This document shows, piece after piece, positions 5,406 through 9,550 of a stretch of DNA of 37,396 nucleotides. The first letter of the stretch is position 1, and the number at the start of each line of letters is the position of its first letter. This DNA comes from Candidatus Zymogenus saltonus (GTDB taxonomy: Bacteria; Desulfobacterota; Zymogenia; Zymogenales; Zymogenaceae): positions 1 through 37,396 of the forward strand of contig JAFGIX010000026.1 in NCBI GenBank assembly GCA_016929395.1, given 5' to 3'. The position numbers were made by a program, and so were the translations under genes. The notes under the pieces were generated by a model. It searched no databases. It saw only the letters and a list, made by a program, of their open reading frames with translations, and was not told the origin of the DNA.

Positions 5406-6203
5406 CTAAACCACAATATCCACATGTTCGACGTCGTCTATCCTGCACCCCAAAAAGGGCTCGCCCACCCTTTTAAAATTATCCGGATCGTCGGTGACAA
5501 AAAACCTCTTCTTCCCCTCTCCCCCGTTCCTCTTAAGCCCCATCTCCGTAAGCCTCTTTTTGACCTCCCACGCTATCGGCACGGCGGAATCCACCAGGGT
5601 CACGTCGTATCCCACGGCCTCCTGGATCACGCCCTTAAGGAGCGGGTAGTGCGTGCAGCCGAGGACAAGCGTATCCAGGTCGAATTCGGCAAACCGCGAG
5701 AGGTACCTCTCCGCGGTAAGCCGGGTTATCTCATCTTCGGTCCAGCCTTCCTCGGCCAGCGGAACGAAGAGGGGACACGGCTGCTGAAAGACCTGAACGG
5801 CGGGGTCGATTTTCACTATCTCCCTCTCGTAGGCACCGCTCAATACCGTTGCCCTCGTCCCAATCACCCCCACCCTGCCGTTTTTCGTGACCCTGACCGC
5901 CCGCTCGGCCCCAGGCAGGACAACCCCGATCGTGGGGACATCGAACCTATCCGCTATCGCGTCGAGCCCCGCCGCGGCGGCGGTGTTGCAGGCCACGACG
6001 AGAAATTTTATCCCCAGCGACACCAGAAACTCGGTGTTTTTTATCGCAAATCCGGTTACCGTCTCCTTTGACTTAGTCCCGTAAGGTATCCTCGCCGTGT
6101 CCCCGAGGTAGAAGCAGTCCTCGTTCGGAAGGGCCTTCATGATCTCCCTAAGAACCGTAAGCCCCCCGACCCCGGAATCGAACACCCCTATCGCCTTGTT
6201 CAG
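5406..6203 (-). CDS. murI: Glutamate racemase
   Basis: This enzyme converts L-glutamate to D-glutamate for peptidoglycan. The FDSGVGGLTV signature is at the N-terminus. The two catalytic cysteines lie in VVACNTAAA and LGCTHYPLL, and the IPYGTKS motif is present. I place the start at CTG 6201-6203, giving MNKAIGVFDSG. The first beta strand of the family is then complete, and GGAGG sits five bases upstream. No ATG, GTG or TTG exists in this frame between the upstream TAG and that CTG. The alternative is GTG at 6185, which would give a protein starting VFDSG and lacking most of strand one. A TTGACA promoter lies about 90 bases upstream. It appears to be the first gene of a murI - EF-G - plsC - TPR unit. 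Confidence 0.9.
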   Translation of the reverse strand: MNKAIGVFDSGVGGLTVLREIMKALPNEDCFYLGDTARIPYGTKSKETVTGFAIKNTEFLVSLGIKFLVVACNTAAAAGLDAIADRFDVPTIGVVLPGAERAVRVTKNGRVGVIGTRATVLSGAYEREIVKIDPAVQVFQQPCPLFVPLAEEGWTEDEITRLTAERYLSRFAEFDLDTLVLGCTHYPLLKGVIQEAVGYDVTLVDSAVPIAWEVKKRLTEMGLKRNGGEGKKRFFVTDDPDNFKRVGEPFLGCRIDDVEHVDIVV

Positions 6204-6364: not shown

Positions 6365-6769
6365 TCAAGGGGCGAGGACGTTGAAGGGATAGAAGGGGAG
6401 ATTCCTCAAAATCGTGTAAACAACTATCAATGCGAGGATAGACCAGACCCATAGGGGGTGCCTTATCAGCTGCGGAAGCCCCCTTCCCATTATCTTATAG
6501 AGGGCGAGAGAGATAAAACCGTATCCCAAAAAGGGGATGGAAACAACCATCAGGGGGTTGAGGTCGAGGGCTTTTAGGATCTGGCCGTGAAGGAGGGCGT
6601 GGATCGCCCTCAGCGACCCGCAGCCTGGGCAATAGAGCCCGGTGATGAGATGGAAGGGGCATGGGGGATATATGAGGGACTGCCCGGGCTTGAAAAGGTA
6701 TAGGACAACGAGTCCAAACACAAGTATGAGCGCCGCACAGGCAACCTTTATTAGATTCAGCTTGTTCAT
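6365..6769 (-). CDS. DUF2752 family membrane protein
   Basis: A 134-residue protein with three hydrophobic segments (about residues 8-28, 72-95 and 108-128). The family motif is recognisable as PCPFHLITGLYCPGCGS followed by LRAIHALLHG. The cysteine pair in CPGCG and the following arginine are the conserved core of DUF2752, whose function is unknown. In many bacteria such genes sit beside TM2 or CD225/dispanin genes. Here it directly follows a zinc-ribbon/CD225 gene after 62 bases, on the same strand, so the two may work on the same membrane process. There is no clear Shine-Dalgarno sequence before the ATG. A hairpin (GTCCTC/GAGGAC) overlaps the stop codon but no T run follows. Confidence 0.8.
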   Translation of the reverse strand: MNKLNLIKVACAALILVFGLVVLYLFKPGQSLIYPPCPFHLITGLYCPGCGSLRAIHALLHGQILKALDLNPLMVVSIPFLGYGFISLALYKIMGRGLPQLIRHPLWVWSILALIVVYTILRNLPFYPFNVLAP

Positions 6770-6831
6770 ATCATTAGCGACTGCTGTGACCTTTTAAGGT
6801 TCAACGACGGGCCTTTAGAAACACTCGTACG

Positions 6832-7206
6832 CTACTGCATCGATCCTATTATGGCGCCGATCATGGCGAGTCCGAAGATCGAAAAGTAGATCATAAAATA
6901 GACGCTCCAAAAGAGGACCCCGACGCCGACCGTGACAAAACACCATATCTTGGCCATGTGCGAGGCATTGAGCGCCTTTTCGCGCTGGCCGGCGATCAGC
7001 CTCCCGTTTACCTGCGCGGCATAAGCGAGGCTCACCACCCCGAATGGGAGACAGCAGAAGATCATAACGAGGATTGCCGGGGCGAGGTAATTCGGGACGT
7101 ACTCCGACTCCCCCTTCTTCAGCGCCTTTGGCTCAAGGGACTTGCCGCAATTTGAGCACTTTACGCTCCCCTGCGGATTTTCTTCTTTACAATTGGGACA
7201 TTTCAT
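6832..7206 (-). CDS. Zinc-ribbon + CD225/dispanin (IFITM-like) membrane protein, copy 1
   Basis: A 124-residue protein. Residues 1-22 form a zinc ribbon (MKCPNCKEENP...CSNCGKSL, four cysteines as two CxxC). A linker follows, then a CD225-type region: YLAPAILVMIFCCLPFGVVSLAYAAQV as a re-entrant or membrane helix with a double cysteine, the conserved G-Q-R-E-K-A loop, SHMAKIW, and a second hydrophobic helix at the C-terminus. This is the bacterial counterpart of the IFITM/dispanin fold; in eukaryotic IFITMs the cysteines are palmitoylated and the protein alters membrane curvature, but bacterial roles are unknown. AGAGGG precedes the ATG. It is the intact copy nearest the DUF2752 gene and one of four tandem paralogs. 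Confidence 0.75.
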   Translation of the reverse strand: MKCPNCKEENPQGSVKCSNCGKSLEPKALKKGESEYVPNYLAPAILVMIFCCLPFGVVSLAYAAQVNGRLIAGQREKALNASHMAKIWCFVTVGVGVLFWSVYFMIYFSIFGLAMIGAIIGSMQ

Positions 7207-7263
7207 TTTTGCCCTCTAAAAAAGCAATGAATAAACTACAATAAAAGCAAACTTCCCGACAGC

Positions 7264-7281
7264 CATGGCTCAATAGCCATG
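7264..7281. repeat. Perfect inverted repeat between paralogs 1 and 2
   Basis: CATGGCT and AGCCATG are separated by four bases, giving a tight 7-bp stem in the spacer after copy 2 and before copy 1. No T run follows on either strand, so it is more likely an mRNA hairpin or protein site than a terminator. Confidence 0.5.
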
Positions 7282-7285
7282 ACTA

Positions 7286-7636
7286 CTATAGGTCATCGAG
7301 GATTACGCTTAAAGCAATAAAAAAAGCATAGATTGCGCTAACAGCGACACCGATCAGGAAGCCTACCCAACACCACTTCTTCGCATTATCCGAGGCCTCC
7401 TGGGCCATCGCATACTACCTGCCGAGCAAAAAGGCCTTGACCCTGGCCGCGTATACGATGGCGACTATTCCGAAGGGGAGACAGCAGCATAGCGTAACGA
7501 GGATCGACTGGACGAGGTAGTCGGGGACGTAATCCGTTGGGCCAGCAGTTACCCCGCTTCTGGTCAGGGACTCCCCGCAAAACGAGCACCTCAAGTTCCT
7601 CGGCGGATTCTCCTCTTTACAATATGGACACTTCAT
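7286..7636 (-). pseudogene. Zinc-ribbon + CD225/dispanin paralog 2, interrupted by in-frame TAG
   Basis: The frame from ATG 7636 to TAG 7286-7288 spans 117 codons but is cut by an in-frame TAG at 7415-7417. Before it are the zinc ribbon (CPYCKEENP...CSFCG) and the CCCLPFGIVAIVYAARV membrane segment. After it the same frame resumes with family-like sequence (AQEASDNAKKWCWVGFLIG and a second hydrophobic helix). Aligned without gaps to copies 1 and 4, the TAG falls where copy 1 has Gln and copy 4 has Asp, so one C-to-T change from CAG would explain it. The ribosome site (AGGAG, seven bases from ATG) is excellent. A 73-residue N-terminal fragment could still be made. TAG is the main stop codon in this window, so readthrough or pyrrolysine is unlikely; recent inactivation is the simplest reading. 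Confidence 0.7.
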
Positions 7637-7708
7637 ACCGGTCTCCTGTAAAATAGAGGGACACTTATCACACGATTATACCTTCTTGACAATTATATCA
7701 TACGTTGA

Positions 7709-8060
7709 TCAATCGATATCGGCCAAGACGGCGATCAACAAAAAGAAGAGGAATACCGCTATCAATACCAACGCTGACCAGAAGCCGGCCATGGACCAGC
7801 TCTTGGCCTTTTCGTAGGCCTCCAGCGCCTCCTTATGAAATCCTCCCAAGAGAAACGACTTTACCTGCGTGGCATATTATCATGGCCACAATCCCGAAGG
7901 GCTGGCAGCAGAAGAGGGTTACCAGGATCGACTCCACGAGGTAGTCGTGGACGTGATCTTCCCTTTTCCCGGATGTATTACCCTTTCTCATGAGCTTCCC
8001 GCAAGACAAGCACCTGTTATTCCCCTGCGGACTTTCCTCCCTGCAGTAGGGGCACTTCAT
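7709..8060 (-). pseudogene. Zinc-ribbon + CD225/dispanin paralog 3, one-base frameshift
   Basis: The frame starts at ATG 8060 with the zinc ribbon (CPYCREESP...CLSCGK) and the LVTLFCCQPFGIVAMI segment, then goes out of frame and stops near 7833. Removing one base at about 7877 restores the paralog reading Y-A-T-Q-V-K-S-F-L-L-G, a KEALEAYEKAKSW loop and a final hydrophobic helix ending at TGA 7709-7711. The repaired product is 116 residues, the same as copy 2. The change lies in ATAATAT rather than a long homopolymer. The ATG lacks a clear Shine-Dalgarno sequence (AATTGGT), unlike copies 2 and 4, which fits a decaying gene. A programmed frameshift is possible but no slippery heptamer plus structure was seen. 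Confidence 0.7.
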
Positions 8061-8131
8061 ACCAATTTCATATTAGTTTATGTAAAATGAATTCGTAAAA
8101 AGCACCTATGGAGAAAAAACTCCAATCAAAG

Positions 8132-8542
8132 CTACATACCTTCAATAAGGGTTTTGTAAAAACCAGTAAAAACATAAATTCCGATTATTACAGTTCCTAT
8201 TATGAAGCCGATCCAGCAAAAAGCTTTCGCTGTCTTCGCCTCCTCCATTGCCTTGACATAATCTCCCCTGTTTAAAAACATCTTCGCCCGGGCAGCGAAA
8301 ATAATCGCGACAATTCCAAAAGGCATACAGCAAAAAACCGTTATAAAGATTGCGAAAACAAGATAAACATCAATGTTGCACGGTACTTTTCCAATTAAAC
8401 GATCCTGAGTATATTCCGGAATATTATCCGGGATATCCTCTACCTGTTCCTCCACCTCTTCGATATAATCCAGGGGCGCACCGCAGTACTCGCAAATAGT
8501 TCTCTCCGGCTTGCCCACTCTGCCGCAATAGGGACACTTCAT
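8132..8542 (-). CDS. Zinc-ribbon + CD225/dispanin (IFITM-like) membrane protein, copy 4
   Basis: A 136-residue intact paralog. The zinc ribbon uses C3, C6, C17 and C20 (CPYCGRVG...CEYCG). A longer acidic linker (about residues 26-50, rich in E and D) follows. The CD225-like region then reads YLVFAIFITVFCCMPFGIVAIIF, ARAKMFLNRGDYVKAMEEAKTAKAF, and a C-terminal helix (WIGFIIGTVIIGIYVF). GAGG lies seven bases upstream of the ATG. It is the first gene of the paralog array and has its own putative promoter at 8626-8652, just past the ATPase operon terminator. The function is unknown; the zinc ribbon may bind zinc, nucleic acid or a partner on the cytoplasmic face. Confidence 0.75.
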   Translation of the reverse strand: MKCPYCGRVGKPERTICEYCGAPLDYIEEVEEQVEDIPDNIPEYTQDRLIGKVPCNIDVYLVFAIFITVFCCMPFGIVAIIFAARAKMFLNRGDYVKAMEEAKTAKAFCWIGFIIGTVIIGIYVFTGFYKTLIEGM

Positions 8543-8625
8543 CCTATCCTCGTTTTCTAATTGACATGAACAACTGCAATTTTCTAATTTGCGGCTTATG
8601 ATTAGATAGCCTTAAAAAAGATACG

Positions 8626-8652
8626 ATAATATTTCACTAATTGCAATGTCAA
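8626..8652 (-). promoter_or_regulatory. Putative promoter for the zinc-ribbon/CD225 array
   Basis: Minus strand: perfect TTGACA (8647-8652) and TATTAT (8626-8631, five of six) with a short 15-base spacer. It sits 16 bases beyond the ATPase terminator and reads into copy 4, leaving a leader of about 75-80 bases. The spacer length is suboptimal. Confidence 0.4.
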
Positions 8653-8667
8653 AATAAATTAAAAAAC

Positions 8668-8695
8668 AAAAAAAACGGCCTTAAAATAAGACCGT
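8668..8695 (-). terminator. Rho-independent terminator of the V-type ATPase operon
   Basis: On the minus strand ACGGTCTTA and TAAGGCCGT form a 9-bp stem (one G-T wobble) with a three-base loop, followed directly by eight T. It lies about 235 bases after the subunit D stop and just before the promoter of the next unit. Confidence 0.75.
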
Positions 8696-8929
8696 CTATT
8701 TTTTTGATTTATGTTTTTAATTCAATTATCGGAATGCCACCCCGTCATCCAATCAAATCCCATCGGTAACCATCCCCCCTGTTCCCCCCATCCCCCATGT
8801 CCCAAAAAGAGGCCTACCCCCCCTCCGCAAACAGAAATAAGACCGACCCCCCACCCCCCAATCTAAACCTCTGCCCGATCCCCCAGTCCAAACAGCCACC
8901 CAACCGCCCGATTCCCCGGCGCCCGCCCG
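8696..8929 (-). other. Long G-rich 3' untranslated stretch after ntpD
   Basis: Between the subunit D stop and the terminator lie about 230 non-coding bases. On the transcript strand they are strongly G-rich, with repeated runs of four to nine G separated by short T/A-containing loops. No open frame with a ribosome site or conserved-looking protein was seen. The stretch is one of the clearest examples of the post-stop G-rich tracts in this window and could form G-quadruplexes. Confidence 0.5.
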
Positions 8930-9550
8930 CTACTTCGCCCTCACGATGTCCTTTACCTTCATCAGGCGGGAGAGGTTGCTTCTCTCCATCTCGTCGAGCT
9001 TTATGGTTATGTATCTCACCGTCTCCTGTATGTTCGGGATGAGGACGTATTCGAGGGCGTTCACCCGCCTTCTGGTCTTTACGAGCTCCTCCGCCAGAAG
9101 CTCCGCCCGTTTCTCGTTCTGGGCGAGTTTTATCATGTCGGAGAAGAGCTTTCTCAATGCCACTATGTAGAGGTCGAGTTCACCGGACGTCCCCGAATAC
9201 CCGTAGCAGATGGGCGGCCCCTCGATCTTGTATGAGATCTCGGGGACCTTGACGTTCATTATCGACATTATCGAGACTTCCATCTCGATCTTGACGGAAG
9301 GCAGCGTCAACGCCTCCTCGACCCGCTCCGGCCCCATGAAGGAGTTGATGTGTATGAATCGCCCGAGCACCCCCGAGAGCTCTTTCTCCACCTTTGCCCT
9401 GATCTTCCTCGTCTCCTCGATGATCTCCATGAACCGGCGCATCAGCTCGTCCTGCTTGTCCTTCAGGAGCTTGTGGCCCCTTTGGGCGACCGCGAGCCTG
9501 CGCTTCAAGCGCATAAGCTCCATCCTCGTGCTGTTGACGTTAAGTTTCAT
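8930..9550 (-). CDS. ntpD: V-type ATP synthase subunit D (central stalk)
   Basis: A 206-residue coiled-coil protein, the rotor shaft that couples the A3B3 head to the membrane ring. The family N-terminus is clear (NSTRMELMRLKRRLAVAQRGHKLLKDKQDEL), with two long helices at the termini and a globular insert, and the C-terminal coiled coil ends KVKDIVRAK. Length matches the family (about 205-215). It is the last gene of the operon, 358 bases after subunit B. In most organisms B and D are closely linked, so the long spacer is odd. The ribosome site is weak (GGAA). The stop is TAG. Confidence 0.93.
   Translation of the reverse strand: MKLNVNSTRMELMRLKRRLAVAQRGHKLLKDKQDELMRRFMEIIEETRKIRAKVEKELSGVLGRFIHINSFMGPERVEEALTLPSVKIEMEVSIMSIMNVKVPEISYKIEGPPICYGYSGTSGELDLYIVALRKLFSDMIKLAQNEKRAELLAEELVKTRRRVNALEYVLIPNIQETVRYITIKLDEMERSNLSRLMKVKDIVRAK

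Follow-up and report, generated by a model that had tools for sequence, protein, structure and literature searches.

Proteins of the CD225 family protect human cells from viruses and regulate membrane fusion. IFITMs block virus entry via membrane fusion, are S-palmitoylated and are endosomal; bacteria are without endosomes. Dispanins of several bacterial phyla have already been described (Sallman Almen 2012, PMC3282796); the motifs of the family are two adjacent cysteines in membrane helix 1 and A-x6-A in the loop (PMC3282796). When produced in human cells, two mycobacterial IFITMs were found to confer moderate resistance to influenza virus (PMC4488726). The locus analysed here carries four CD225 genes of bacterial origin next to a gene for a DUF2752 protein.

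The window, a stretch of 37,396 nucleotides from Candidatus Zymogenus saltonus, contained on the minus strand and in this order a gene for V-type ATPase subunit D (8930..9550; PF01813, 1.3e-55), the four zinc-ribbon/CD225 copies, the DUF2752 gene and a glutamate racemase (MurI-like) gene (5406..6185; PF01177, 9.1e-21). Copy 1 (8132..8542, 136 aa; PF04505, 1.8e-18) and copy 4 (6832..7206, 124 aa; PF04505, 1.4e-18) were intact, copy 2 (7709..8060; PF04505, 6.1e-8 for the first fragment) was frameshifted, and copy 3 (7286..7636; PF04505, 9.4e-13 up to the stop) contained an in-frame TAG. The repeat copies were spaced 424 and 430 nt apart, and copy 4 adjoined the DUF2752 gene (6365..6769), which encodes a protein of 134 aa with three predicted transmembrane helices (PF10825, 1.4e-20). 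A preliminary description of this DNA had given the coordinates, the head-to-tail order and the presence of both intact and broken copies, all of which were correct. No CD225 genes were found elsewhere in the source genome, and an Rfam scan of the window matched no RNA. A consensus scan of the minus strand found a terminator-like hairpin of the intrinsic type (8673..8697, an 11 bp stem and then a run of T) 3' of the V-ATPase gene, between it and the array, and a sigma-70-like promoter site, TTGACA-18-TATCGT (8623..8652, 10/12 matches), upstream of copy 1. These consensus matches suggest that the array may be transcribed separately from the V-ATPase genes.

The four paralogs had been assigned to the CD225/dispanin family, with an N-terminal CxxC...CxxC and a cysteine pair in the CD225 region. 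The profile search placed all four above the PF04505 gathering cut-off of 27.1 bits (66.9, 33.1, 48.5 and 67.1 bits for copies 1 to 4), and the CxxC...CxxC was found in 4/4 copies, with individual zinc-ribbon models scoring slightly under their cut-offs. The cysteine pair corresponded to the dispanin signature CC-x-P-x-G, and the second dispanin signature, A-x6-A, was also present; among 51 aligned CD225 proteins, C51-C52 was kept in 49-50, A78 in 51 and A85 in 48. The CD225 profile also matched eukaryotic PRRT1 in PDB 9zks (2.2e-20). The DUF2752 protein scored 73.5 bits against PF10825 (cut-off 27 bits).

To follow the DUF2752 link beyond this locus, public genomes were scanned with DUF2752 as the query; the CD225 alignment of the family was too divergent for a contig scan. 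About 60 of the best 80 DUF2752 loci had an adjacent CD225 gene, nearly always directly upstream, and at one additional locus (L087) the CD225 partner was confirmed by Pfam. A set of 40 genomes spanning many bacterial phyla was picked for carrying a window-like DUF2752, so that the count is conditioned on DUF2752; of its 43 CD225 genes, 42 had a same-strand DUF2752 gene no more than 1.5 kb away, and CD225 came first in 41. Because of this conditioning, even samples were added. In the Actinomycetota sample (99 genomes, seed excluded), 8 of 9 CD225 genes were paired with DUF2752, which was present in 8/8 genomes with CD225 versus 26/99 overall (p about 9e-6), and both CD225 genes in the Bacteroidota sample were paired. 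The link with DUF2752 was borne out and is far more general than could be known from the sequence that the preliminary description covered. Among 395 genomes of the window's phylum, CD225 was found in 8, of which 7 also had DUF2752; the two genes were adjacent in 5 of these, and in the other 2 they sat at or close to the ends of separate contigs. CD225 genes without an adjacent DUF2752 gene were seen in G530 C8, G431 and G274, the last being the one CD225-carrying genome of the window's phylum with no DUF2752 at all, and DUF2752 genes without an obvious membrane partner were seen at L047, L063, L089 and L139-L141. The words "operon" and "neighbour" are absent from PMC3282796, and neither DUF2752 nor DUF4190 was mentioned in the main texts of the literature searched, which covered non-subscription papers and a minor share of preprints; DUF4041 and DUF1887 were found in main texts by the same approach. 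The pairing of CD225 with DUF2752 appears to be undescribed in the literature searched.

DUF2752 genes without CD225 often followed a gene for DUF4234 (PF14018), TM2 (PF05154, some with zinc ribbons and some lacking them), a zinc-ribbon Yip1 protein, DUF7544, RDD (PF06271) or DUF4190 (PF13828), so that TM2, DUF4190, DUF4234 and RDD take the slot of CD225 upstream of DUF2752 elsewhere. Genes for unnamed multi-TM proteins preceded other DUF2752 genes, and some DUF2752 genes stood alone. On the DUF2752 tree the partner label changed 14 times, versus 35.7 times when shuffled, showing that the label follows the tree. Two Nonomuraea loci, each from a different species, had different partners in the same slot, namely CD225 at L050 (4574-4982; 3e-23) and DUF4190 at L094 (4496-4937; 1.9e-20). 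The upstream DNA of the two loci was 81.5% identical, the N-termini were similar and rich in Gly, Tyr and Pro, and the DNA was 89.6% identical from around codon 16 in DUF2752 into the downstream region, but no DNA match was found across the membrane domain and the first DUF2752 codons were also unmatched. Within the Streptosporangiaceae (Nonomuraea), the partner swap occurs in place with collinear flanks kept, and the locus amounts to a natural domain-swap experiment. In Planotetraspora kaengkrachanensis (L073, 4191-4877), an RDD protein was seen in the same slot, behind a Pro/Gly-rich N-terminus. A comparison of the CD225 alignment with the DUF4190 and DUF4234 sets by hhalign gave probabilities of 6.6 and 0.7, respectively, and detected no homology. 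Because this profile-profile comparison was negative, a common fold of CD225 with DUF4190 or DUF4234 is not claimed.

The predicted structure of the DUF2752 protein (pLDDT 94.3, pTM 0.81) showed three long helices with a structured loop between helices 1 and 2. T43, G44, C47, P48, G49, C50, G51, N71, R122 and N123 were invariant in 58/58 sequences, giving the loop motif TGxxCPGCG; C37 was kept in 56/58 sequences, and a C-terminal L-A-P was conserved. The N-terminus and the second loop carried the positive charge, and the positive-inside rule applied to this distribution would place the Cys loop probably on the outer face. A fold search with the DUF2752 model gave no match in the PDB (best E 7.7) and none among viral models. 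In the AlphaFold model of copy 4 (pLDDT 85, pTM 0.53; helices 41-50, 53-71 and 75-123), a zinc ribbon was accompanied by one long helix and two shorter ones; the fold search with this model matched nothing beyond short zinc fingers or helices, with E >= 2 throughout.

On balance, we consider it reasonably likely that the pair is a bicistronic membrane module, with a constant DUF2752 and an exchangeable CD225 protein, that has a role in envelope or membrane homeostasis and was amplified here. The CD225 hairpin protein and the DUF2752 protein encoded just downstream would most likely assemble into a single complex of the cytoplasmic membrane, as gene order suggests. As we infer it, DUF2752 would be the constant 3-TM subunit, and its invariant Cys motif (TGxxCPGCG plus the upstream Cys), probably facing outward, could serve in metal binding or thiol exchange. 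The exchangeable subunit would be the CD225 protein, forming a hairpin in the membrane and having a cytoplasmic N-terminus, a zinc ribbon here and Gly/Pro/Tyr-rich in others, for sensing or recruitment. The complex would most likely serve membrane or envelope homeostasis, its genes being a housekeeping accessory of the chromosome. Tandem duplication of the hairpin gene took place in this genus; copy 4 retains the ancestral pairing, and the extras are diverging and decaying. Gene pairing, partner exchange, orthology, amplification and decay were thus observed, and the physical complex, the topology and the envelope role are inferred.

The history of the array was explored in relatives. The sister species (G001) had five CD225 copies and DUF2752, with one copy broken, beside the same murI gene. 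Genomes from two other genera of the family (G002 and G003) each had one CD225 gene and DUF2752 after V-ATPase subunit D, and in G002 murI, orthologous to that of the window as is the one in G001, was next in order. Thus, the local amplification that had been proposed holds, and copy number at this site does vary, with 4 copies here, 5 in the sister species and 1 in each of the other two genera. In the tree, the DUF2752-adjacent copies of the window, G001, G002 and G003 formed one clade (96/95), with the extra copies as its sister group (81/81); within the extras, copy 2 of the window paired with copy 4 of G001 (98/94), and copy 1 was a divergent extra paralog on a long branch. Synonymous sites between the window species and G001 were saturated, and dN was 0.15 for murI, 0.20 for DUF2752, 0.27 for copy 4, 0.51 for copy 2 and 0.57 for copy 1, so that the extras evolved at about twice the rate of copy 4 at non-synonymous sites. 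Copy 4 is therefore the conserved syntenic ortholog and the other copies are faster-evolving extras. From the copy numbers in the relatives, the tree and dN, it follows that the ancestral unit was one CD225 gene plus DUF2752, and that amplification with relaxed constraint and decay took place in this genus. The proposed turnover was seen as well, the extras diverging, copies 2 and 3 being broken and the ortholog of copy 2 in G001 being independently broken. Two side observations concern single genes of the pair. The only CD225 protein of G003 (L014, 4283-4672, minus strand) was without the zinc-ribbon cysteines, and the ribbon is thus dispensable among these CD225 proteins. Two Bacteroidota loci, L079 (5323-5628) and L092 (3943-4236 and 5393-5695), had extra short DUF2752-like ORFs beside the main pair, showing that the DUF2752 side can duplicate too.

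For the extra copies, neutral tandem duplication has close to an even chance of being the explanation. The ancestral pair would then do the work, and the three extras would be transient by-products under loss; this reading is limited to the extra copies and does not conflict with the two-gene module. It fits the broken copies 2 and 3, the independent break in the G001 ortholog of copy 2, and the contrast in dN between the extras (0.51-0.57) and copy 4 and DUF2752. However, the extras were retained in two species despite saturated synonymous sites, and their dN is still far lower than dS. In addition, copy 1 and its relatives in G001 remain intact, and independent tandem CD225 copies occur in other phyla (L018, L021, L023, L038, L040 and L095). 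With dN this far below saturated dS, the extras do not look like genes under diversifying selection.

It is rather unlikely that DUF2752 acts as an insertion, folding or thiol-redox factor for the neighbouring hairpin protein instead of as a stable subunit. In favour of this reading, DUF2752 stays constant while unrelated membrane domains swap beside it, and the invariant CPGC lies on the predicted outer side. The partners, however, share no conserved outward cysteines as an obvious substrate, and the invariant RN and the conserved C-terminal L-A-P would be left unexplained. We prefer DUF2752 as a subunit of the proposed membrane complex.

The lesions in the array could also be assembly errors, or be read through, in which case all four genes would be functional. 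Three-frame translation placed the lesion of copy 2 at a one-base frameshift near 7880, and that of copy 3 was a single in-frame TAG at 7415-7417. Each broken copy thus has one lesion, after which recognisable homology resumes and runs to the natural end (PF04505 2.3e-21 for copy 3 read through the TAG), and the source genome was assembled in 92 contigs. Nevertheless, the orthologous copy in the other assembly, copy 4 of G001, was interrupted by a TGA, a lesion different from that of copy 2 in the window, and the genes on either side of the array were intact. Recoding of TAG was rejected because copies 1 and 4 terminate with TAG, which is an ordinary stop here. Taken together, functional copies 2 and 3 are quite improbable, and decay of the extras beside an intact ancestral pair is the reading that we retain.

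A conflict or defence role, which had been raised as speculation, was not borne out. The synteny of the locus is conserved, between the V-ATPase and murI genes; recurrent defence genes were absent among 99 neighbours of the module, and at E 0.01 no PADLOC model matched copy 1, copy 4, DUF2752 or their relatives. There was little on mobile DNA, with no relative found on viral contigs by tblastn and few plasmid matches (4 records, all non-mobilizable). Most phages are generally known to enter without membrane fusion. For these reasons, and because the extras have a dN far lower than dS, it is very improbable that the CD225 proteins stiffen the membrane against phage DNA entry in an IFITM-like anti-phage or conflict system whose array diversifies under attack, despite the homology to IFITM3, the moderate influenza resistance that mycobacterial IFITMs confer on human cells (PMC4488726), and the variable copy number and broken copies. 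Phage carriage was also rejected, the best match in a phage collection (MT839860) having pyrimidine biosynthesis genes. This record (L130, MT839860.1, filed as Bacteriophage sp.) has pyrF/pyrK/pyrD-like genes beside a CD225-DUF2752 pair and, because of them, looks like a mislabelled bacterial contig. The pair and its three partly decayed extras suggest a membrane housekeeping complex over virus defence.

The near-obligate gene partner names a candidate binding partner for bacterial CD225 proteins. With bacteria as the presumed origin of CD225, the pairing argues that the ancestral role of CD225 was in a membrane complex and not in defence. More tentatively, and with somewhat less than an even chance, bacterial dispanins may be the exchangeable hairpin subunit of a widespread and so far unrecognised two-protein membrane machine with DUF2752 as its constant part, in which CD225, DUF4190, TM2, DUF4234 and RDD are alternatives, and the ancestor of eukaryotic IFITM, PRRT and similar proteins may have come from such a complex.

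Compared with the described systems, the four copies resemble the CD225/dispanin (IFITM) family, PF04505, in the HMM match, the CC in the first helix and the A-x6-A in the loop and, more tentatively, in the predicted hairpin-like shape of the copy 4 model. An operon with DUF2752 is, to our knowledge, not known for eukaryotic IFITMs, and the zinc ribbon and the tandem array with broken copies likewise set this locus apart from them. The DUF2752 protein of the window is a clear member of PF10825, an uncharacterised family. Copy 1 was weakly alike to the CCC motif membrane protein NF040945, at 20 bits, far under the 65-bit cut-off. The closest described relatives are the bacterial dispanins (PMC3282796) and the mycobacterial IFITMs (PMC4488726), which belong to the same family as the four copies.
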